64,000 bases of DNA, taken from the NCBI RefSeq assembly GCF_963675165.1, contig NC_087390.1, positions 949,501 to 1,013,500 on the forward strand. The letters are read 5' to 3'. Below are positions 37,309 to 63,866 of the stretch, in pieces. A model generated the notes under the pieces. That model saw only the letters and a program-made list of their open reading frames with translations, did no database searches and had not been told where the DNA came from. This DNA is from Halichondria panicea. Lineage: Eukaryota > Porifera > Demospongiae > Suberitida > Halichondriidae. The stretch's first letter is position 1. The number at the start of each line of letters is the position of its first letter. Position numbers and translations under genes: made by a program.

Positions 37309-37508
37309 ATGAGCTTGTTGTTGTCCTTTTCTGTGTTTACAGTATCTGTATTCAATGCCACCGATGTTATAATAACTCTAACTACACCTGTCCACTTTCA
37401 TCCTGTAATAATTATATGCATACATTATAATATATGTAGCAGAGCCGTTTCTTACAGATATAAGCCACTAGATCTATAGCTGGCTATATTAGAAATGAGC
37501 GTTGAAAA

Positions 37509-39038
37509 ATGAGTTGTAAATACGGAGTGAGAAAGTTCTACTCAAAGGGAGCCTATCTTGTGATAGCTTGGACACTGCTTGTGAGTGCTACTGCTATTGC
37601 TAGCTATAGCTTAATCGAGTCGGTCTCTACAAACTATCCAATTTGGCTAGGTGCAATACCACTGTCGTTATTTCTACTCCTAACATTTTGGCTCGGATTG
37701 CTAGCCAATTACAAGCTTCAAGATTACACAATAATAAGGATCGGAATTATCTCCCTATTTTTTGTAGCAATGGTTTCCAGCATATACGTCCTAATTCTAG
37801 GTTCTGGGCTAGAACATCGCTTTGAAAAGTACAGACTTCTCAATGAAATTGTATACTGTATAGTGGGGTGTGTGTTTTTGGTGGCAATGACATGTTTTGT
37901 CTGCACACTACAACTAGGCCTGGATCAGATGCCTGATGCATCATCTTCTAGCATCACTAGTTTCATCGCTTGGTTTGTGTTCAGTACAAGTGCTGGTAGA
38001 TGGATTGGGGAATTTTTGGAATTTGTCTTGAAGGGCAACTGTTTCGGGTTAGTTGAAGTTACAATAACTAGTATCCAACTTTATAGTCTGTGTGCTGCTT
38101 TATTTGCAAGTCTTATTCTTGTTCTCGACCTCCTTTTCGCTAAAAGCTGGTTAATTATCGAGCCTAACCCACCAAAATCATTTACATTGATCTACTGTGT
38201 TCTCAAGTTTGCTGCCAAGCACAAAGCTCCCCTCAATCGCAGTGCTCTCACATACTGGGAGGAAGACGTACCTTCAAGAATGGACCTGGGAAAGTCGAGA
38301 TACGGTGGACCATTCACTACAGAGCAAGTTGAAGATGTGAAATCAATTCTACGATTGCTGGCTATGAGCCCACCCTTGTGGTTAATCTCGTTTGCACTTG
38401 CTTTTAATCCAACATTTCATGACGCTGCACTACAACATCGACATATCAAGTTTCATAATTTCACCAACTGCACATCTGACATGCTTTTCTCTTTTACGTA
38501 CAGTGGTCATTTGTGGTCTATGATCGGTATCCTGGTTAATGAATTCTTTATCTACCCGCTTTTCAAAGACAGACTTCCAAGTATTCTAAAGAGAATCGGT
38601 GTTGCTTCTTTCTTTTCTCTGGTTTTGAGCATAGGTTTTATTATTCTAGAATCATTTCAGGTAATGGAAATGGTAGAAACTGTTATATCTTTTGTGTCAA
38701 ATGGTTTGCTGTCAACTCTTTTTCTTTGTGCCATACTGGAGTTAGTTTGTGCTCAGGCTCCATACAACATGCGAAGATTATTTGCTGTGTATATGCTTAT
38801 TAATTATGGGACAGCTTCAATTGCTGGCATTTATGGAAGCGGTGCAATTCACCCAAAAAATAATGCAATGGTACTGATACTGTTTGGAATCAAGGCTGCT
38901 ATCAGTCTGCTTGGATTCATCCTGTACTGCCTCCTGGCTCGCTGGTATAAGAGAAGAGTTAGAGACGAGGACTATCATGTACAAACTGTTGTGGAGGAGG
39001 TCTATGATCGATATCTAACACCTCGTAATCTAGATTGA
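37509..39038 (+). CDS. POT/PTR-like multi-pass membrane transporter, intact copy 6 (509 aa)
   Basis: Near-identical duplicate of the gene at 23791, offset by 13,718 bases. It differs in the protein by Asn for Asp in STNYPIW (after helix 1) and His for Asn in YSGHLWS (helix 8). The five-codon upstream ORF at 37495-37512 is kept. All 12 helices and family motifs are present. The near identity extends into the flanks, so the pair arose by segment duplication rather than selection on the protein alone. Confidence 0.85.
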   Translation: MSCKYGVRKFYSKGAYLVIAWTLLVSATAIASYSLIESVSTNYPIWLGAIPLSLFLLLTFWLGLLANYKLQDYTIIRIGIISLFFVAMVSSIYVLILGSGLEHRFEKYRLLNEIVYCIVGCVFLVAMTCFVCTLQLGLDQMPDASSSSITSFIAWFVFSTSAGRWIGEFLEFVLKGNCFGLVEVTITSIQLYSLCAALFASLILVLDLLFAKSWLIIEPNPPKSFTLIYCVLKFAAKHKAPLNRSALTYWEEDVPSRMDLGKSRYGGPFTTEQVEDVKSILRLLAMSPPLWLISFALAFNPTFHDAALQHRHIKFHNFTNCTSDMLFSFTYSGHLWSMIGILVNEFFIYPLFKDRLPSILKRIGVASFFSLVLSIGFIILESFQVMEMVETVISFVSNGLLSTLFLCAILELVCAQAPYNMRRLFAVYMLINYGTASIAGIYGSGAIHPKNNAMVLILFGIKAAISLLGFILYCLLARWYKRRVRDEDYHVQTVVEEVYDRYLTPRNLD

Positions 39039-45732: not shown

Positions 45733-47969
45733 TTACAGATATAAGCCAACCTTAGCATACTTCAGCCAGTTTGGAAGAACTCGACCAATTTCCTCCAACA
45801 CTTCAGACGAGCAATGCTGATCAAGCACTTCTTTCCTGATACCCACTTCCCTCACTATAATGTCTACAGTTAAATGTTGACTTCTGGGATGTTCACCTCC
45901 GCCAGGATCTTTCTTTTCGAACCAAATCAAATGTTTATTTTCTAACTTTCCATCGTATTCATCAGGCTTTTCGGAACAATTCCAGGTATAATAGTCAACA
46001 TCAACCTCAGCATGATGACTTGTTATGGCACCATGAATACAAGGACAGAATAAGCAGATTTCTGGGGCATCAATCGAATAATGAAGGGCTTCTTGAGAAG
46101 CTCTAATTCCTTCCAAAATGTCTTCTTTGATTTTTGGACAGAGATTTTCACAAATAATTTTTTGAGCTTTCACATAAACTTCTATGTGTGTGTTTGAATC
46201 GACAAGAGTAACAAAACATTGATTCTTTTGATACTTAAGCTTGATACAGTTTCTTGCTTGAGGCACTTGTTCTCTCAACTTACTGTACCTTTCCCACCCA
46301 CGTCTTTTCATTAAGAACACCACCAGGCAGCAGAATACCCCAGCTCGAATACAGCCATTGGTGAAGCGAACAAGAAGTGGATCGACAGAGGGCTCATGGA
46401 TGCAACAGTTTTTCAGCTCAGCTTGTGGTATAGATTTAAGGAGGGCAGGCATAAAAAATTGAGACGTGTTAGCAGATTCGCTTAACAGAGAATTTGTGAA
46501 AGGAGTTATCAATAAAAGTTCTTTCATGAGCTCTATCATATCCTTGGGAACAAAGATGCCAACAAGGAAGTGCTCCTTAAAATGCGCAGACTCCAGCATA
46601 TCAAGCGTTAGGACGCCATCATCTCTGAACAACTTCCACTTAGGATCCATTAGAGTTGCAGTTGGTAAAGTATCTTCACCACCTCCTCTCAAAGACATCG
46701 CATATTGAACAAGGTCATTGATTATCTCTAGGGGTACCTGGGGATCTACAAAGACAACTCCAGGCAGTTTCTGCGGATAGTAATGGGCAATACAGATTTT
46801 GTTGAAATATTCAAGAGCAGAATATATGTCATCAGTATCTGGCTGTAGTTTTTTAGCCACAGACACACACTCACTTATAGTCAGAATACGTCTCCCAACT
46901 TTAGTGCATAACTCTTGCAAGGAGAGCTCCAGAGCAAACCACCGGAGTGGAACTTTATCTTCAAAAAACGGAGACCCTTCCACGGCATTTCGAATAACTT
47001 GTGCAATAGTTTGCGTGTCTTCATCTCGAGATGTTGCATTCAAAGCAAATATTTGTTGGGTCATTTGTGTGTTGCTGTATGCTCTAAAGCACTCAGGAAT
47101 CAAGTCACGGAGTTCTTTATTTTTTCCCTCGAGGGTTGCAGATAGAACTGAAGGAGGATCATCCTTGAATGCGTCTTTGAATGTGCCCACAAATATACAT
47201 CGTGGCTTCTTTTTATGTGTGTTCATCGACAGTAGAGATTGAATGAGACTTAGAATAGTTTCCCTGTGCGACAAGTGTGAGAGGGAAGGAGTACCGACTT
47301 GTTGTCCTCTTATATAGAACTCATCAGAGGGATAATCGTTAAACTTGTCTGTGAGCTTCATTACGTATACACCAGCTGAAGTTCCTCGTGTGAAAAGAGG
47401 TGCAATATCGTGAAACTGTGGTTGCCCTCCACTATCAGTAACACGTATCGTCATGGTACCAAATAATTCTTTGCCGCTTTTATGTCGTACGCTTGTTGAG
47501 ACTGCTATTGAACTTATTTCCTCAAGATCATCAACTACAGCGTTTACCGCTGCTTTTGAGTGATCATGAATATTCTCAGCAGCGCTTGTACTACTCTTTT
47601 TATTAACACCCTTTACTGCTACTTTTGAGTGATCATGAATATTTTCAGCAGCGCTTGTACTGCTCTTTTTATCAACACCCTTTAAACTATACTGAGAAAT
47701 AGCTCGAGAAAGTAAACTCTTCAGATCTTGGGTTGTCATTTCGTTCCATTCTTTGCCTTTGCGCATAAAATTATGACTTGCTACTGATCGGACCTGGATG
47801 GTTCTATCTAAAGGACCTGTGCTATTTCGTTTTTCCTTTACTTCGTTATTCAATACAAGATCTTTAACACTCGTCTTTCCACTACCAGCAGGTCCCATTA
47901 GAATAACATTAACAGTTTTCAAAGTGACAAATCCATCCTTCATTGCCTCTTCAAAATGTTGTTTAAATC
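45733..47969 (-). CDS. Roc-COR-like GTPase exon of a 2A/Death-domain gene (3' end truncated)
   Basis: Large last exon. The acceptor (TTCTGTTTCCAG) lies at 47970-47971 and the exon enters in phase 1 with FKQHFEEAMKDGF. Counting from that Met: P-loop GPAGSGKT at 17-24, DSGGQPQFH at 170-178 (the DxxGQ of Roc and other Ras-like domains) and TFKD at 255-258 (the NKxD-type motif). A COR-like region follows (PLRWFALELSLQELC onward). Two 23-residue repeats around SSTSAAENIHDHSK lie at 88-133. The last part (EVLEEIGRVLPNWLKYAKV) looks like the start of a Death domain and is cut off. The final four residues and the stop come from array DNA. Roco-type proteins are GTPase switches; a signalling or immune role is inferred from the Death exons upstream. 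Confidence 0.75.
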
Positions 47970-48409: not shown

Positions 48410-48709
48410 CTTTGTATTTCAGCTCAATTGCATCAGCTATATTGTCTTGTTGGACAATGTTACTTCTGAGGCACTTGCAAATGTCACTCCATGTACGAGA
48501 AGGTGAAGATCGCAACCAGTGGGTCAGCACTTCACGCAAGCGAGCTTTATCACTATTTTCATTAGACTCGATATCCTCAAGGATGCCAACTTTAATCCCC
48601 AAAGCGAGGCCTATGTTAAACCAATCTCTAGCGGCCTTGATTAATAGAGAAAAAACTTCTTGCAAATCTTCAATGCATAATTGGTTGTCATATCTTTCAT
48701 CATCCTCAC
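48410..48709 (-). CDS. Death-domain exon D1 (100 codons)
   Basis: A 300-nt exon, AG acceptor at 48710-48711 and GTAATAGC donor below 48410, phase 1 on both sides. It encodes EDDERYDNQLCIEDLQEVFS, then WFNIGLALGIKVGILEDIES, LREVLTHWLRSSPSRTWSDI and CKCLRSNIV: a six-helix Death-fold pattern with the usual W-x-x-L-G-x-x-L-G core and the W-L-R...TW late helices. It joins in frame to the GTPase exon. It is almost identical to D2 and D3, so it arose by a recent tandem duplication of about 1 kb. Confidence 0.8.
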
Positions 48710-50295: not shown

Positions 50296-50595
50296 CTTTG
50301 TATTTCAGCTCAATTGCATCAGCTATATTGTCTTGTTTGACAAGGTTACTTCTGAGGCACTTGCAAATGTCACTCCATGTAGGAAAAGGTGAAGATCGCA
50401 ACCAGTGGGTTAGCATTTCACGCAAGCGAGCTTTATCACTATTTTCATTATACTCGATATCCTTAAGGATGTCAACTTTAATCCCCAAAGCGAGGCCCAT
50501 GTCTAACCAATCTTTAGCGGCCTTGATTAATAGAGAAAAAACTTCTTGTAAATCTTCAATGCATAATTGGTTGTCATATCTTTCATCATCCTCAC
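50296..50595 (-). CDS. Death-domain exon D2 (100 codons)
   Basis: 300 nt, phase 1 to phase 1, with the same splice sites as D1. The domain differs by a few residues: WFDMGLALGIKVDILKDIEY instead of WFNIGLALGIKVGILEDIES, and SPFPTWSDI instead of SPSRTWSDI. Open throughout. Because exon length is a multiple of three and phases match, extra copies can be included or skipped without breaking the frame. Confidence 0.8.
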
Positions 50596-51264: not shown

Positions 51265-51564
51265 CTTTGTATTTCTCCTTAATTGTATCAGCTAGATTGT
51301 TTTGTTGGACAGTGTCACTTCTGAGGCACTTGCAAATGTCACTCCATGTACAAGAAGGTGAAGATCGCAACCAGTGGGTCAGCATTTCACGCAAGCGAGC
51401 TTTATCACTATTTTCATTAGACTCGATACCCTCAAGGATGCCAACTTTAATCCCCAAAGCGAGGCCTATGTTAAACCAATCTCTAGCGGCCTTGATTAAT
51501 AGAGAAAAAACTTCTTGCAAATCTTCAATGCATAATTGGTTGTCATATCTTTCATCATCCTCAC
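51265..51564 (-). CDS. Death-domain exon D3 (100 codons)
   Basis: 300 nt, phase 1 to phase 1. Very close to D1 (WFNIGLALGIKVGILEGIES) but with a diverged last helix (CKCLRSDTVQQNNLADTIKE). The donor is GTAATTATAAGC. About 65 bases upstream of it on the - strand, an intron segment is inverted relative to the D1 unit. Confidence 0.8.
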
Positions 51565-51844: not shown

Positions 51845-52120
51845 CTGTACATGCCTCCTCTATAGCCTCAGCAACTTCATTCCGTTCAACTATAGGTGCT
51901 CTGAGACTCTGACATATTTCAGAATAGGTGAGAGGGCCAGTCTTCAAGCGAGCAGCTAGTATTTCAAGTAGACAGGTTTGATCGTCTCGATGTTTATCAC
52001 TGATATTATTGAGGGTGTCATAGCTCACTCCCAGCGTAAGTCCCAGGTTGAACCAGTTTTTGGTAGCTGGTATCAATTTCCCGTAAACAGACGACAAATC
52101 ATCGATAGTCAGAGTTGAGC
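51845..52120 (-). CDS. Death-domain exon D4 (92 codons)
   Basis: 276 nt, acceptor TTTGTGTAG, donor GTATGAATAG, phase 1 to phase 1. A more distant Death domain: STLTIDDLSSVYGKLIPATK, then NWFNLGLTLGVSYDTLNNIS, LLEILAARLKTGPLTYSEIC and QSLRAPIVERNEVAEAIEEA. It is closest to the Death exon at 63867 (AARLKSGPLTYSDICQSLRA), which belongs to the NLR gene. It is the first Death domain after the 2A exon. Confidence 0.8.
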
Positions 52121-52750
52121 CTACACAAATTACCAGTCAATGGTAAGTATACATGGTTTATGCTTGTAATACTCTATAAAATGAAAGCACTGTGGATGCT
52201 GATGCCTCGGTGGAGGTTCCAAAGCTGCGTTCAATTGAAGAAAAATCGGCCTGGGGTCGAGGCTAGCAGGCAGATTGAATCCAGGATCACAGGGAAACTC
52301 GAAGAGTGAGTAATGATCGACCACGATTGTTATTAAAAACAATCGATGCCAAAGTTCAAGTCTGGCTGCATCAGCAGAGCCTTGTAGCTTTCTTCTCACT
52401 CTTGCAGCTACCAATAGCTAGCGTTCTAATGCAGAGCTAACTACTAAGTAGAGTAGCAACACTCGTTAAACAAGTTTTGCTACGGACTCTTCTGAAAAGG
52501 CTGCAATGGCATTCCAAGTAAGCAAAACTAAGCATAACTCGAGAACAAAGCGCAAATCCACAAATTATAATCCGAGAAAACATGACTAGAAGCCTATAGA
52601 AACTCTTACTTGCACTTCATTAGCAGTCTACACAGACACACAGACACACAAACATACTACCGTATACCTCGCTTGCGCATGTGCACCGAGGCATAATAAC
52701 TGACAGCAGTTTACATAATAATTATGTATACATAAGGAGACACTGCTTAC
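52121..52750 (-). other. Intron with repeat insertions
   Basis: Holds a half-arm of the palindromic element (ATCGGCCTGGGGTCGAGGCT, 52246-52265) and, at about 52410-52700, a repeat whose inverted partner lies at 56060-56335 (TACCGTATACCTCGCTTGCG in this copy). No exon seen. Confidence 0.6.
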
Positions 52751-52900
52751 TAAGCGTTGGTCCAGGGTTTGCTTCAACATCTCCTGACTGTAACAGTAAG
52801 CGGAATATCAGTAACAGTATATACAGACTGAGAGTGGGGGGCCGATTAGTGCTCTGAACTCTCACTTGGAACTTGGTCGGCTTTTCTTGAGTATCAAAAA
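52751..52900 (-). CDS. Exon ending in a 2A-like ribosome-skipping motif
   Basis: A 150-nt exon, acceptor TTACTTTCTAG, donor GTAAGCAGTG, phase 1 to phase 1. After FDTQEKPTKFQVRVQSTNRP it encodes a Leu-rich stretch (SLYILLLIFRLLLQSG) and then DVEANPGP (52758-52781), followed by T and the splice. This fits the D-x-E-x-NPG/P consensus, including the hydrophobic helix before it. In known 2A peptides the ribosome fails to form the Gly-Pro bond and continues, giving two proteins. Such sequences are known at the N-termini of NLR proteins in sea urchins, where they can also act as signal sequences. Placement just before Death exons fits that pattern. Confidence 0.75.
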
Positions 52901-52945
52901 CTAGAAAGTAAGAGTGACGTTTATAATTATTGTGGCAGGAATTAC

Positions 52946-53143
52946 CTGATGTGGTACAATACTGAATGTTCCATTGTTTCCGAGGGTTCCATCTCACCAA
53001 GCAGGCAGTGATGAGTGAGTAGCAGGTGATAAGCACAGCTGACAGAATGAGAACGGCCAGTGCACTCCCCCTCCATCCCAGCTCACAAGGAAACACTCCG
53101 GTCCAACTCAAGTCAACCACAGGGCAAGCAGGACGTGGGGGAG
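52946..53143 (-). CDS. Exon with a membrane helix, unrecognised protein
   Basis: 198 nt, acceptor CTACACAG, donor GTAATTCC, phase 1 to phase 1. Encodes PPRPACPVVDLSWTGVFPCE, then a helix (ALAVLILSAVLITCYSLITA), then WNPRKQWNIQYCTTS. Open without stops and in phase with the exons on both sides. I do not recognise the family. Confidence 0.55.
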
Positions 53144-53344
53144 CTGTGTAGAGTTGCATAAATATATTCATGTGCTGTGACATCACAATTGTGGTCATTC
53201 TGTGAATACCAAGCTAATGGCTGTTTAAAACTGAACTTTAAGCATAATTATTGTGGCCTATGCCCCGTAATAATTATGCTCTGATATAATGTGTATGATA
53301 AAAAATGTTATGCAATTATTGGTGAGTATGCTTCACTGACTCAC

Positions 53345-53582
53345 AGGAAAAAGTTTGTAAGAAGAGTATGTATCTGATGGTGACCATAATGAGGTAGAGT
53401 TGGTAGAGGACAGGGGTGATCAACACAGAGGCAAGGCAGGCTCTGAGCTGCCAACTAGGCTTATGGAAAACCAGGGGAATATCATCTTCCAGATCTTCCG
53501 GGTGTTTGTAGGGTGGTCTGATTTTTGGATACCATTTTCTTTCAAAGGATCTTGCTGTTGAGGACTTCAAAATCCACTGCAT
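53345..53582 (-). CDS. First coding exon with a membrane helix, unrecognised protein
   Basis: ATG at 53582 opens MQWILKSSTARSFERKWYPK. It continues with an acidic stretch (HPEDLEDDIPL) and a long hydrophobic segment (LRACLASVLITPVLYQLYLI plus VTIRYILFL), and ends at donor GTGAGTCAG after 238 nt, in phase 1. It joins in frame to the exons at 52946 and 52751. It could be the 5' end of the 2A/Death/GTPase gene or a separate small gene whose exons happen to share phase. The - strand start faces the + strand methylmalonyl-CoA mutase start at 54254. Confidence 0.55.
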
Positions 53583-57903: not shown

Positions 57904-60436
57904 CTGGTGTGTCTAGTTCCAATGTATCGTCAAAGTTTGATAGCTGGTCCATTTCAGACTTTGATACCAAATCCCTGAAACAGTCCATCAGAGTCTTTTG
58001 TGTTGCATCCTACAGAGAAGTGTACATGCACGAGGATGATAACTTTAACACAGCCGTGTAAGCAATTAAGTAGATAGCTTGCACCGTTTTATGGAAATAA
58101 AATAATGTATCTGTGTGTATACGTTCGTATTGCATGATAACAGTGGAAGCATCACAGATCTTGAATTATCAGATCTAAACACTTTATTCCCTTTATAACT
58201 CTCTACTGTTAATAAATTTAAACGGTCACACATGGAATAGCCACATAAGATAAGCCACATAAGATAAGCCACACAGCAGTTTCAGTAAGGGACCTCATGG
58301 TCACACACGGAATAAGCCACCAGTTTCAGTAAGGGACCTCTATAGTGAAGTCTTTGCTGACCTTGGCTGTGAGTACTGCGCTCTCTGACCAGCAAGTCAT
58401 AGCTAATGATATTCACGAGGCAGAACGAGCCACACCCCTTTGTCGTTAGGATAACATTAATATCAGCATCCACCAGTGAAGGAATCCATCATTTGAAGGC
58501 CTGCACAGGGGGTGGGCATAATATGTACTGTATGGTTATAATTTCCACATGTAGGTCGAGTATAATTAACACAGACTAATAATTATGTATATACAATTGT
58601 ACCAGCCTAGCGCTATTTCAACAACCCTCTATACCTATAAAGATCCTTAGGCCTTAAAATAAGAAGTATATTCGTACGAATGACCTATATCTAAACCAGG
58701 TGAGTTCTACATAGCTACATGTATGTCAACAATACTGTCCTATAACTTCTACTAACTTGAAATAATTGTAACAAGTTAGAGAAAGCCCCACCCGCCCACT
58801 CACCTCAGCCCAGGTGAGTCTCACTGATGAGGGGCACACTACGAGGAGGGGCCAATCAGAGCGGTAGTAGGACATGACGGCTATGGCCTGAAGTGTCTTG
58901 CCTAGTCCCATATCATCAGCTATCAACACTCGGCCATCACGCTTGATCGAGTATCTGTGGGGGTGGGGTTAGAGGGTAATCAAATGAGTGTGATATTGTA
59001 GTGGTAATAATTGTCGAAACAACCTATCAGGGAAATGATAATCTACTGTGTGTGTTTTGTGAATATAGCAAGTTATGATAATAATACAGGCTATGGCTGC
59101 CGCTCTAAAACATTATCAGTACCCAGACATTAACTTACTCCACTCCTTCTTTTTGAAACTCCATCAGAGCGGTGCTCAACTTTGTCTCAATCCTGCTCCA
59201 GTCAATGACACTGGGATGGGACTGGGCCTGTATGGAATGGGACTGTGCCTGTAGCTGTGATAGGAACAGGTTTATGACAGGTCTGGGTATTAGGTCCAAC
59301 TCCACATGCTTGCAGCTGCTCTGGATAGCTTTAACTGCAGAGGGGAGGGGCTGTTACAGTGGCATGCATGAAATCAACAACATACCCAGTGAATTGTAGT
59401 CTTCTATTCCAAAGCTCCATAAGGACGTTTTGGTATCTATAGAAAAAAAAAGAATGATATGATATCTGGTATGCAGCAATCCATGATTTTTATTCACATT
59501 TAGAGGCCATTCCATAAAACTTAATGCTCTGAAAATTTCACGCTTAAGGTAGAGAGGAGGATGAGGTAATTATATACGGGTATGTTTATACATAATTATG
59601 TTTACAATAAAATTATTAGTCTAAAACATAATCTTACTGTAAGCTCTTGTAGACATCTTCTTGAATATTTCGATGAGGTCATGATCGTACTGCACCTTGA
59701 CCTCCAGCCTTGTCCTGGACACCATACAAACCCGTGCCTTCTTCTTGTCTCTCAGTTGGGTACACTTCACAGGGGGAGGGTGGTCAGGCGGTAGTGATGG
59801 TGGCGGCTTGCAGCTCATCGCTGCTGCCACTTTAATGGAAGCATCCGGTACCGAGGTGATGGGATGAAGTGCATTCAGAGGTGGCTTAGAGTAGAACGGA
59901 GGAATTCTCGAATTTACTGGAACATTAGGTGCCGATTTCGGAGGAGAGTTATGGGACAATGTAGACAAGTGAGGAGTGGACGGTTTGGAATAAAATGGTG
60001 GTTGTTGGAGACCAGTTTGAGATGTCATTGATGATGGGAGTTCATTGTGTAATGTTCCTGTTCTTGGTAATGATAGCGTCTTTGTGCTGCTGGAGCTGCC
60101 TTGGTGTGATATTAGAGGATTAGCCGATCTTGATTCTTGTACTTGATTTCTGGCACTGGAACTTGAGCGGCTAGCTTCAGCAGAATTAGGATGAGATCTA
60201 ACGTTGTCATAGGAACTCGAACTAGAGAAGGTAGACGCCATCTTTGATGTTGTAACTGCAGACGTAGTGTAAGCGTGTATCTTTGCAGGAGGAGGTCCCT
60301 GCACACCAGTGTGGGGTGGAGCCACTCTCTTGGCTGTTAGTTTGGCTTGAGCTCTTCTTCTGTTTGCCTCCATTCTCTGCAGCTGCTCAGTAGACATTCC
60401 TCCACTGCCACTAGCTGAGGGTCTACCAGGATGCAT
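57904..60436 (-). pseudogene. SMARCAL1: SMARCAL1 (HARP annealing helicase), truncated gene
   Basis: Exons on the - strand: 60436-59638 (MHPGRPSASGSGG, EQLQRMEANRRRAQAKL, a Ser/Pro-rich linker, then the HARP start RLEVKVQYDHDLIEIFKKMS), 59436-59386 (TKTSLWSFGIEDYNSL), 59334-59139 (VKAIQSSCKHVELDLIPRPV to ALMEFQKEGVE) and 58954-58804 ([35 protein letters not shown]: helicase motifs I and Ia). The next exon, 58500-58362 (WIPSLVDADINVIL, LVNIISYDLLVR), has TGA at 58489-58491 where Arg is expected. The rest of lobe 1, including the DEAH-type motif, and all of lobe 2 are missing. A possible later exon (58009-57904) does not follow in phase. SMARCAL1 rewinds DNA at stalled forks; this copy could make at most an N-terminal piece. 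Confidence 0.8.
58205..58345. repeat. Short local duplications
   Basis: ATAAGCCACATAAGATAAGCC is repeated, and CAGTTTCAGTAAGGGACCTC occurs twice (about 58275 and 58321), next to the broken helicase exon. Confidence 0.7.
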
Positions 60437-60597
60437 GGTAGTCTTTTTAGTCAGAATAGCTGGCTCTTAGTCTAGATCTACTTGATGAAACTCTCATACA
60501 ATTTTACACTATAAAATATTAATATATCATTGCAATTGGAAATGATCATGACACATACTAACATAATATCTATGTAGACACACAAATTCATTGCTAA

Positions 60598-63500
60598 TTA
60601 AATTTCTTTGGGATACTTTACTCTACTCCTAACACTGTCATAGTCGATGCACTTTATAGCACTTTTCCTTGCACTTGATGGAACATGTAATTCTTCAATT
60701 GTCGTATTGAGTTTTAGACCCTCGATAATCAGAGACCAGTCGGGAATATCCACTATTAGGTGGAGAACAAGAAGACTCTTATTTACTTTCAACATATCAC
60801 CAACAGCTGTACAGTCTTCTGGATTGATAAATAGAAACTCATAGCGAGGCTTTGAAAATTCTGTTTTTGCAGGTTTAAACTCCAATATCAAAGTTGTGAG
60901 ACTGGAATTCTTACTCAATGCATTTGCGATAGGTAGTAAGAAACGCTGCTGTGGTTCCATATATAGTGTTGGCAAATGCAGGTACTCAAGATTCTTATTA
61001 TTCTCAAGTACATTGCAAATAGCCACAATTGAATCGTTGTTGGCTATTACTTGACCATTAAAATTAAAGTCTAGTGTAATTTCGAGTTTTTTTAGCTTCA
61101 TACTTAATATCTCCATTATATTTTTTAAAAACATTGATGAAACTGCCGGCCGCTCAACATCATCAATGAATAATCTCGTGATTTGCACGGCAAAACTAAG
61201 TGTAACACCATCACAAACACAAATTTCTATTTCCTCCAGAGAAATGTTTTTCTGCAAAAGGACACAGAACTCATCCACAATTTCGTCTGATGTAAAGTTC
61301 ATGGAGCAACATAACTTTTTAAGTTTAACTGAAACGCTTTGCTCAAGTGTGTTAAAAATTAAGGAATCCACCTTAAAGCAATCAGAGTTCTGCAGAGATT
61401 TAGATTTAGGTATGTCGGAGAGAATTGTTAGTTCTTCCAGCACAGGACACTTGGAGAGGGAATGAGAGACTGAGTGTTTTAAGACATTGCTGCACAGTGG
61501 ACCATAACGCATAAAATATGTCAAATAGTCAGCGAAGTGATTGATGAATTTTTTGGCTTGTTCTGTGAAATCACCCATATATATAGGACCGAAATTTGAA
61601 GGGAACAATTGACAAAGCTGCAGTTCTTTAAACCTTTTGATATTCAATCCAAATACTAAATACTGTGTACCACTATGTTTCACTGATTCATCATCGCTAT
61701 CATCAATATAGCCGACACTTACGGAGACCTGCAAATATTCCAAAGAGGTACAGAGTTTTTTAATCGCATCAATTTCACTAGCAGATAGGGGGCGATTAAT
61801 GAGACAACACAAAATCTTTAAAGTTCTTGAATCTTTCAAGGCATCCAGAAAGTATGATGTTGTATTAACCTTCTCAGCATTAACTATGAATTTCGACAGG
61901 AATTTGCTTGTCAATTCCATTCCATCAGAGTCATTATGCAACACTACATTTGTTGAAGCTGGAATATAGTTGATGATTTCACACAAAAGATCAAAAGGGG
62001 GTGAAATTGAATAATTATCATGCAATACTATATCCAAGAATTTAACATGTGAAGAGCATTTAGAGTTGTGTCGCTTGAGTTCATCCATTAAATGATGAAG
62101 ATTTTTTTGAAGATAAATATCTGTCCCGTCCCAGCTAGTCGCCCGGGGATTGCTAATACTTAATTCTAGCATGAATTTTCCTACTGCTATGCAATAGCCT
62201 AGAGCAAGGAAATACAAGGGATCCAATTGTGAGTGTGTTAGTTCGATAAGGAGTACAACATTATCGAAAGAGGAAATTAGTTGTTCATTTTGAGTTTCAT
62301 AAAGCCAGAGTATGTGTTGTCTATTGAGGTAAATCACCAACTCATTGTCTGACGATCTAACTCGCGATCGTGGAGCAGGTAGAACACATTTTGTCCAGGA
62401 ATCAGAAAATGTTGTGAGACCGGCTAAAAATAACTTGATCATGCCATACTTTTCGGACTGTTCTTCAATGAAAAGTAGCTGTTCCTGTTGGGGGTATGTT
62501 CTCCATATATGGAATGCAGCCAAGAACTCTTGCAGCGTTAGATGAATGAAGTTATATGAAGGAGATGCGGTTTTTGTTATGGATTGATGCAATGGATGGA
62601 CACTATTCATAAAACCAAGTGTAGCACTGCCTTCGGGAATGTCATTCTCGTAGAAAATAAGCTGGTGTTCTTTTAATACTATTCCCTTGTGGGCAACTTT
62701 ACAAAGGTCAAGGAAATGAAGTTGAAGTGATGGAGGCAAGTCATGAAGATCACCATTCCACTTCTCTTGCACTGGGTGGTCAGTGAGGTATCGCTTTAGC
62801 AAAACACGAGAGTATTCAGTAAAAAGTTCTGTTCTTGTGTTCGGGAAAATATTTTGTTTTTCGTCATGCCATTCCATGTAAACTTGAACAACAATACGAG
62901 CACAGAGAGGATTGTACATGGCACTGTGTATTTGTGGGTTGGCAGCAATATATGTTCTCAATCCATCTGGTGCTCCATCCTTAATTGCCAAATCAATATA
63001 TTCTTGTACCTGTATCTCTGTAAAACCAAGGACCACAATCTTTTGATCAATTCGATGACTACACCCTACAGGTACAGCCCATGGCCTGGTGGTTATGAGA
63101 ACAGTGCTGGCTGGAAGGAGTCTTCCATGTATGAGTTTCATGATAATACAGCTGTCCTTCGTTTCTCTAAGTGCAGGCGGAAATTCATCGAGACCCTCAA
63201 GAATAAATAGCAATCCTTCACCTTCTGATCGAGATACTTCGTCGCTGACTTTCTGTGATCTAGCTTCATCTCCACATTCAAAAAGGTCAACCAAGTTATT
63301 AGCTTCATGAGTGCACTTATCACGAAGTGACAGCAATACAACAAGAAAGTAGTCTCTCCAAATGTACCCTAGACTCCACCGTCTGCACAGTTCCCATGAC
63401 AAGGTGGTCTTACCGACTCCTGGAGCTCCTTTGATGATAACTAGTTTGGGAAACGAGTCTCCAATTTTACATGCAATTCGTTCAATACAAACTTGGCCTT

Positions 63501-63731
63501 TATCTACAAGATCAATTTTTCCGTGCACTTCGTGTGTTTGAAATTTGGGTCGAGCAAATCGATCACGATCGTCGACAATCTTCAGATTTATAAAATGTTT
63601 CACACAGTCAAGAGGATAGCGCTCATCAGCAGGAAGCTGTTTTACGTTGTAAATGCTAATAAGGTATGTTTTATATGTTTCAATAGCACTCAATTTTGGC
63701 CTCTTTGATGGCCCAGGCAAAGTATTGTCAT
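60598..63731 (-). CDS. NLR-type protein, NACHT-LRR exon
   Basis: One long exon, acceptor ACTCCTCAG at 63732-63733, phase 1, stop at 60598. It opens with DDNTLPGPSKRPKLS. Counting from the next residue positions (MPGP = 1): Walker A GAPGVGKTT at 98-106, Walker B region LLFILEGLDE at 170-179 and TVLITTRP at 206-213, which together mark a NACHT domain. HLTLQEFLAAFHIW near 405 is typical of the region after NACHT. From about 640 to 1030 there are leucine-rich repeats (LEYLQVSVS, LEELTIL, LKKLEITLDF, LEYLHLP, LTTLILEF, LLVLHLIV, IEELHVPS). NLRs sense infection or damage in the cytosol and oligomerise through NACHT. The Death exon upstream (63867) supplies the effector domain. No frameshift seen; likely functional. 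Confidence 0.85.
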
Positions 63732-63866
63732 CTGAGGAGTTAATCCATATAATTGAATTATTATAAATCTACACACATACTTTTCTTTTGTATAGGCACT
63801 ATATCGTCTATCATTACGTATACGTATACTACATACTGCATGCAGCTGATGGCATGCACTATATAC

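Follow-up and report, generated by a model that had tools for sequence, protein, structure and literature searches.

Does the gene that carries a 2A-like motif between membrane-helix exons and Death-domain exons encode a single membrane-bound protein, or two proteins that part during translation? The gene lies on the minus strand of a 64,000-nucleotide stretch of the genome of the sponge Halichondria panicea (contig NC_087390.1, 949,501 to 1,013,500), the whole of which is referred to here as the window; coordinates without a contig label are those of the window, and other places in the genome are denoted by an L number or by a C label with position. According to a first-pass annotation, a membrane protein (about 190 residues) and, separately, a protein with four Death domains and a GTPase could both be made from one mRNA. 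The gene and its relatives in the same genome, compared here at the sequence level, make it probable that one gene does yield two proteins from one frame by 2A ribosome skipping, a membrane leader and a cytosolic Death sensor.

Exon structure and predicted products of the window gene

Exons 53582-53345, 53143-52946 and 52900-52751 on the minus strand join in frame, with AG/GT borders and phase-1 joins, as had been proposed. Exon 1 (53345..53582), delimited by its open reading frame and a GTGAG donor, opens with an ATG, upstream of which an in-frame stop codon begins at a distance of 24 nt; it encodes a basic N-terminus and, by hydropathy, a first hydrophobic segment (residues 49-67). Exon 2 (52946..53143) encodes a short loop with two Cys and a second hydrophobic segment (residues 110-128), and its pattern PVVDLSWTG.FPC..GWR is kept in four aligned leaders. 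Exon 3 (52751..52900), recognized by its splice borders, genome matches, hydropathy and the selection test described below, carries a basic stretch, a third hydrophobic segment (residues 169-187) and the 2A peptide LLLQSGDVEANPG, after which comes the Pro that follows the predicted break. The tail of this exon reads LSLYILLLIFRLLLQSGDVEANPGPTL and its terminal residues are LLLQSGDVEANPGPTL, followed by the donor GTAAG. The octapeptide DVEANPGP occupies 52759..52781, and the claim that the Leu-rich exon is spliced in phase onward to the Death exon D4 (51845..52120) was borne out: the D4 acceptor is TAG, the phase is 1, and the junction reads NPGPTLSSTLTIDDL.

Downstream of D4 the frame continues through exons 51564-51265, 50595-50296, 48709-48410 and 47969-45733, the first three being the Death exons D3, D2 and D1 and the last the GTPase exon. 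All introns are of phase 1, so that the inner exons are symmetric modules. The joined frame comprises 1332 codons over eight exons, with no stop before codon 1333, and ends with the stop at 45733. Interrupted between Gly192 and Pro193, it would yield a 192-residue leader, ending in DVEANPG, and a 1140-residue product that starts P-TLSSTLTIDDL, in keeping with the sizes first suggested, with the conserved splice phase and with the 2A context.

The identity of the downstream domains was examined by profile and structure comparisons. A structure model of D4 (predicted local distance difference test, pLDDT, 86) contains five helices rather than six according to DSSP, and its top Foldseek match was 3ezq_B, a chain of the Fas/FADD death-domain complex (template modelling score 0.78, probability 1.00, E 0.035), with none at E ≤0.001; in Pfam, D4 matched Death at E 0.023 only. 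On the strength of the model, D4 is assigned a death fold and placed in the Death domain superfamily. D3 (51265..51564, minus strand, phase 1) came closer in Pfam (Death, 1.4e-4, 22.3 bits against a cut-off of 22.6), D2 (50296..50595) and D1 (48410..48709) were recognized from the joined frame and alignment, and a profile built from ten Death domains matched PIDD/FADD at E 0.002-0.006.

The GTPase exon (45733..47969), with the motifs GPAGSGKTS and DSGGQ, is Ras/Roc-like by sequence. The earlier designation as a Roc GTPase holds to this extent, its Pfam Roc score lying just under the cut-off (24.8 bits against 27, E 2.8e-5); Roc was matched at E ≤0.1 in five of ten aligned GTPase members. No COR family was found after the GTPase among the Pfam matches, a profile search of the PDB yielded no Roco structure, and a Pfam scan of the window gene at E up to 1 gave no NACHT. 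A single-sequence structure model of the GTPase (pLDDT 33) was too poor for use. Five further copies of the exon at ≥80% identity exist in the genome. At one other locus, L050 (C14:1057000-1059900), a 2A copy is followed by Death and by a piece resembling the last part of the GTPase exon in the window, the GTPase itself not being seen within that stretch; the piece extends past the point where the window copy stops, and the end of the window gene may be truncated or spliced further.

The sequence around the octapeptide resembles described 2A peptides. The window gene has the octapeptide D(V/I)ExNPGP, and the residues before DVE are IFRLLLQSG; in the family, LLLQSG, LLLQCG or LLLLAG precede DVE or DIE. 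Compared by eye, this upstream context agrees with a described Leu-rich class of 2A ending in (A/S/C)G (PMC12846837). The D-to-N variant of the octapeptide, carried by two siblings, was more than 95% active in a natural viral context according to the same paper, and skipping at a sea urchin N-terminal 2A was estimated, qualitatively, at about 80% (PMC4981915, partial text). In the proposed mechanism the gene would be transcribed as one mRNA, and the ribosome would first make the 192-residue leader, with its two clear membrane segments and third hydrophobic stretch. The Gly192-Pro193 bond would then not be formed, the leader would be released, and translation would continue to give the second, Pro-starting product of 1140 residues, which contains the four Death domains and the Ras/Roc-like GTPase and is expected in the cytosol. 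The ratio of the two products would thereby be fixed near 1:1.

A role for skipping in the placing of the sensor is suggested by the predicted topology of the leader. The counts of K+R against D+E (9/6 in the N-terminus, 2/2 in the first loop and 6/2 in the second) suggest that the N-terminus is in the cytosol, the first loop in the lumen and the second loop in the cytosol. With this topology an unskipped product would carry its Death domains across the membrane, and skipping would thus keep the sensor cytosolic. A scenario that overlaps with this one, and differs in the role given to the unskipped product, is dual targeting, in which deliberately partial skipping yields both a cytosolic (skipped) and a membrane-spanning or secreted (unskipped) sensor, as proposed for sea urchin NLRs. 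The same logic has been published and tested with reporters (PMC4981915, partial text); transmembrane domains have been reported in sponge NLRs (PMC12909245, partial text), and the third hydrophobic segment of the window leader directly abuts the 2A. The constrained two-segment module of exons 1 and 2, however, exceeds what a signal sequence needs. Death domains of known proteins also function in the cytosol, which again counts against dual targeting, and we regard it as a possible but distinctly less probable explanation than the division into a membrane leader and a cytosolic sensor.

Distribution and conservation of the leader-2A family

To the exact 2A motif pattern there were 39 matches in the genome, and to a relaxed pattern 116 (the first 100 places being listed), compared to none for the reversed pattern in either case; with NPGP also found after every exon-2 match, a chance match was ruled out. 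Protein searches of the genome yielded 45 matches to exon 1, 47 to exon 2 and 54 to exon 3, the window's own included (two of the exon-3 rows, on C6, are pieces of one copy). Exon 1 lay upstream of exon 2 in 45 of 45 cases. The NPGP motif followed exon 2 in all 47: at 44 places this was established by coordinates, the motif lying 166-237 nt past the exon on its strand, and at the remaining three it was read in the DNA, as DVEVNPGP in the C16 copy (L007) and as NVEANPGP in L008 and L022. No relative of the leader was confirmed among the pattern matches in viral (18) and prokaryotic (11) contig collections, and a leader profile had no better match in the PDB than E 0.93.

The sensors behind this leader are of at least two kinds. 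In the interval after each exon 2 (at most 12 kb, and cut at the following exon 2 of that strand), the next large part was NACHT at 32 of the 47 places, the window-type GTPase at six and neither at nine (seven of the C2 type, one on C16 and one at C14:1.06M), where "neither" refers to the matches listed, namely six of 78 for the GTPase (≥80% identity), the first 36 of 150 for NACHT and, for the motif, 55 of the places listed. NACHT is clear in the sibling L003 (Pfam 2.1e-20), and at C14:1.00-1.18 Mb the NACHT and GTPase versions are interspersed with the same leader in front. A NACHT exon is also present in the window itself, at 60601-63768 (minus strand, Pfam 1.7e-15); by position it belongs to the neighbouring 2A gene, which has its exons 1-3 at C14:1013728-1014556, just outside the window on the right. 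With dozens of sister genes having the same leader and peptide, the leader-2A cassette looks like a reusable device for split immune receptors, a phase-1 module that would be set ahead of NACHT and GTPase sensors alike.

Two further clusters of the motif were observed. On the plus strand at C10:4.27-4.45M there are four copies of DIETNPGP, three of them about 23-31 kb upstream of same-strand GTPase matches. At L033 (C2:7822500-7832400) four NPGP motifs are spaced about 2 kb apart, the first after an exon 2; in the last three the open frame ahead of the octapeptide spans just 12 residues, and this array could consist of tandem pieces or be a single transcript with several 2As.

To examine how far the splicing pattern is shared, 30 loci of the C14 type were surveyed, namely that of the window and 29 siblings. 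All 30 have the exon-3 donor GT at 31 nt from the first base of the D/N codon; a donor fitting GT[AG]AG follows exon 1 in 27, and 28 have AG at the exon-2 acceptor. No exon-1 donor was found in L006 and L008, L009 has no exon-1 match, and L027 lacks an exon-2 donor by pattern. In the window copy the 45-nt gap that separates exon 2 from exon 3 contains no stop and keeps the frame, which would permit a reading without an intron. This reading is disfavoured for the family: of the 30 loci, 18 have an open unspliced frame and 12 a closed one (in L009 through the exon-3 lesion), whereas an in-frame splice from exon 2 to exon 3 is available in 29; several AGs were tried per locus, and the existence of such an option is by itself weak evidence. 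The gap thus behaves as an intron in the family. Further downstream, the donor of the 2A exon joins a Death exon in frame at 18 of the 22 places that have a downstream Death match.

These counts bear on the other possibility raised in the first-pass annotation, that the 2A exon alone is an N-terminal signal-2A with a start of its own, exons 1 and 2 belonging to another gene or forming an alternative 5' end. An in-frame Met just ahead of the hydrophobic stretch occurs in 19 of 33 C14-type exon-3 rows, and at two loci an EHD-like fragment replaces exons 1 and 2 ahead of exon 3. These are L034 (C14:1231000-1238600, three places at C14:1.23M) and L010 (C13:6487000-6496500), where the join to Death is likewise in frame, so that the 2A-Death unit there has another leader; one EHD-like stretch of L034 matches EHD2 in the PDB at 2.5e-29, and EHD-like fragments had no match in Pfam at E 0.01. 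The window exon 3, on the other hand, has no Met, the motif stands 166-237 nt past exon 2 at every one of the 44 places measured, and an in-frame splice between the two exons is available in nearly all loci. For the window copy this suggestion was therefore set aside as unlikely, though it may apply to siblings that have the Met.

The effect of selection was assessed by the proportions of nonsynonymous (pN) and synonymous (pS, uncorrected) differences between 29 C14-type and four C2-type rows (27 and two for exon 1); L010, L034 (three rows), L035 and L036 were left out, and L009, whose exon 3 is matched as two short fragments, is absent. In GDVExNPGP pN was 0.06 and pS 0.77, a ratio of 0.08. 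The corresponding pN and pS were 0.19 and 0.65 in exon 2, 0.23 and 0.84 in exon 1, and 0.53 and 0.65 in the first part of exon 3, while in the hydrophobic stretch of exon 3 pN was 0.39, pS ranging from 0.65 to 0.84 across regions. Low pN despite a large pS between the subfamilies indicates that selection maintains the 2A peptide and the two-segment leader as protein. Most of the rows were picked for having the motif, which biases the test toward it; the exon-2 matches, found without reference to the motif, still all carry NPGP.

Could the octapeptide nonetheless be a plain linker that is read through, the product being a single membrane-bound Death-GTPase receptor? The frame is indeed one continuous open reading frame, and for sponges the existence of membrane-bound NLRs has been suggested (PMC12909245, partial text). 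Such a linker would not be expected to be strongly constrained at the peptide level beside a stretch that varies freely, and the predicted topology would place the Death domains of the receptor outside the cytosol. As described below, this motif also closes leaders of at least two further kinds ahead of Death exons. Read-through is thus considered improbable, more so than a separate start at exon 3.

Several observations weigh against division of the window gene by skipping. The 29 C14-type rows are too alike for the motif to be isolated among them (bootstrap 95% interval of pN/pS 0.09-0.98 for the motif and 0.38-0.77 for the rest of exon 3), and within this type pN/pS was about 0.57 in exon 1 and 0.49 in exon 2. 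Some siblings look damaged, L009 by a frameshift in exon 3, L026 by a TGA in exon 1 and L008 by an exon 1 split over frames; L006, L007 and L025 have no AG at the usual exon-3 acceptor, and the remaining four of the 22 places with a Death match are of the C2 type, where a different exon seems to come next. The topology is drawn only from hydropathy and charge counts. ER (endoplasmic reticulum)-targeted leaders can lower 2A activity. The D-to-N octapeptide variant (D12N) was only modestly active in a foreign context according to earlier work cited in the paper that found it active in a natural one (PMC12846837).

Other leaders, retroelements and neighbouring genes

Eight loci from other 2A clusters (L035-L042) were examined. 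The leader common to L035, L037 and L038 is of another kind (MGI.VELWRARIG...); it contains one or two hydrophobic segments and is followed by the 2A and an in-frame Death match. In L040 the leader has three hydrophobic segments, and NACHT (Pfam 1.4e-11) comes after the 2A and an intervening helical exon. The same-frame sequence after the 2A in L036, L039 and L041 is Death- or CARD-like by eye; Pfam gave no Death or CARD match on the scanned stretches of L036 and L039. Similarly, no CARD was found in Pfam for the exons behind the 2A that were read by eye as CARD-like in C2-type genes, L039 and L040. The best PDB profile match of these exons (E 0.0033) was a computational design based on template 1cy5, a CARD.

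The eighth locus, L042 (C3:1928500-1933500), is a non-LTR (non-long-terminal-repeat) element composed of a 2A, a PHD finger, an endonuclease and a reverse transcriptase. At least one element of this kind is therefore present in the genome, and the motif in the window could in principle be a residue of such an element with no role in the gene. Near exons 1-3 no such open reading frame was seen by eye, no family search of the whole window having been made; the exon structure holds over 30 loci, and the peptide is constrained between subfamilies. The frame in the window runs into Death and GTPase exons and not into endonuclease or reverse transcriptase, and the genuine 2A element lies elsewhere. 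A retroelement origin was rejected on these grounds and is, of all the explanations considered, by far the least probable.

Two other features of the window were recorded. Tandem SLC15A4-like transporter genes occupy 1206-43306 on the plus strand (for example 37506-39038), some copies containing stops; SLC15A4 was matched in the PDB at E 4.3e-10. Similar clusters are found at C7:3.12-3.14M, C14:3.43-3.46M and C6:5.31-5.52M, with at least 86 matches in the genome (84 of 646 candidates scored). Several of them adjoin 2A sensor or GTPase genes and others do not obviously do so. Mammalian SLC15A4 serves NOD signalling. At 59624-60466 on the minus strand there is a HARP-like fragment (Pfam 1.1e-4, 22.1 bits against a cut-off of 25), and a similar stretch occurs in L050.

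Relation to known systems and possible meaning for the sponge immune repertoire

The closest parallel is found in the sea urchin, where a 2A is present at or near the N-terminus of about 35% of NLRs (85/241), and 14 proteins have a 26-residue 2A at the very N-terminus (PMC4981915, partial text). In the window gene, as in SpNLR2A (Roulston 2016, PMC4981915, partial text), a Death-type sensor has at or near its N-terminus a hydrophobic leader that ends in a 2A, and as in the sea urchin Death-NACHT-LRR proteins NACHT is the next large part in 32 of 47 Halichondria siblings. Unlike the short sea urchin leader, the present one has 192 residues in three phase-1 exons, two further constrained membrane segments and no Met in exon 3, and unlike sea urchin NLRs the window sensor has a GTPase and no NACHT. 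Sea urchin 2As located inside the N-terminal region are counted in that paper as well, a definition that the window gene would satisfy.

In another sponge, Dysidea avara, large Death/CARD-NACHT-LRR expansions have been described, some with predicted membrane segments, and membrane-bound NLRs were suggested (PMC12909245, partial text); the main text of this paper contains no word starting with "ribosom", and the part available names no 2A. In contrast to that proposal, a 2A between the parts would release the NLR. 2A-bearing APE-type non-LTR retrotransposons were reportedly described by Odon in 2013. They share the same octapeptide, which stands there ahead of endonuclease and reverse transcriptase and here ahead of Death domains in a multi-exon gene.

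The first-pass annotation knew of no described gene with this order of parts, and within the literature searched this stands, with the qualification that the sea urchin Death-NACHT-LRR genes with a 2A are a close published parallel (PMC4981915, partial text). Among the titles listed in searches for 2A with NLR, sponge and Porifera there was none on 2A in sponge immune genes. A PNAS 2026 paper cites the sea urchin case, and the words sponge, Porifera, NLR and Death are absent from its main text. In a eukaryotic 2A survey that could overlap with the present family, Rao (Cell Rep, 2025) is said to have searched viral and cellular proteomes for 2A, and relatives may well be included there. Relative to the literature covered, three features appear to be new: a multi-pass leader built from phase-1 exons that are distinct units, the placing of this leader ahead of NACHT as well as GTPase sensors, and the similar use of other leaders.

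A broader interpretation can be offered tentatively, as clearly less likely than not: that 2A is a general route to two-component receptors, in which a membrane protein is made at a near-fixed ratio with a cytosolic Death-fold sensor containing NACHT or a GTPase. The membrane half would then be a working partner (an anchor, a bait or a muropeptide-side co-receptor), and skipping would couple the dose or location of the sensor to the state of translation, so that a pathogen that disturbs the ribosome would alter the receptor. StopGo recoding has been described as rare in cellular genes (PMC12846837). If the 2A studied here is active, some gene models taken for membrane-bound receptors may in fact be split pairs, and an animal immune repertoire would have 2A as one of its standard tools.
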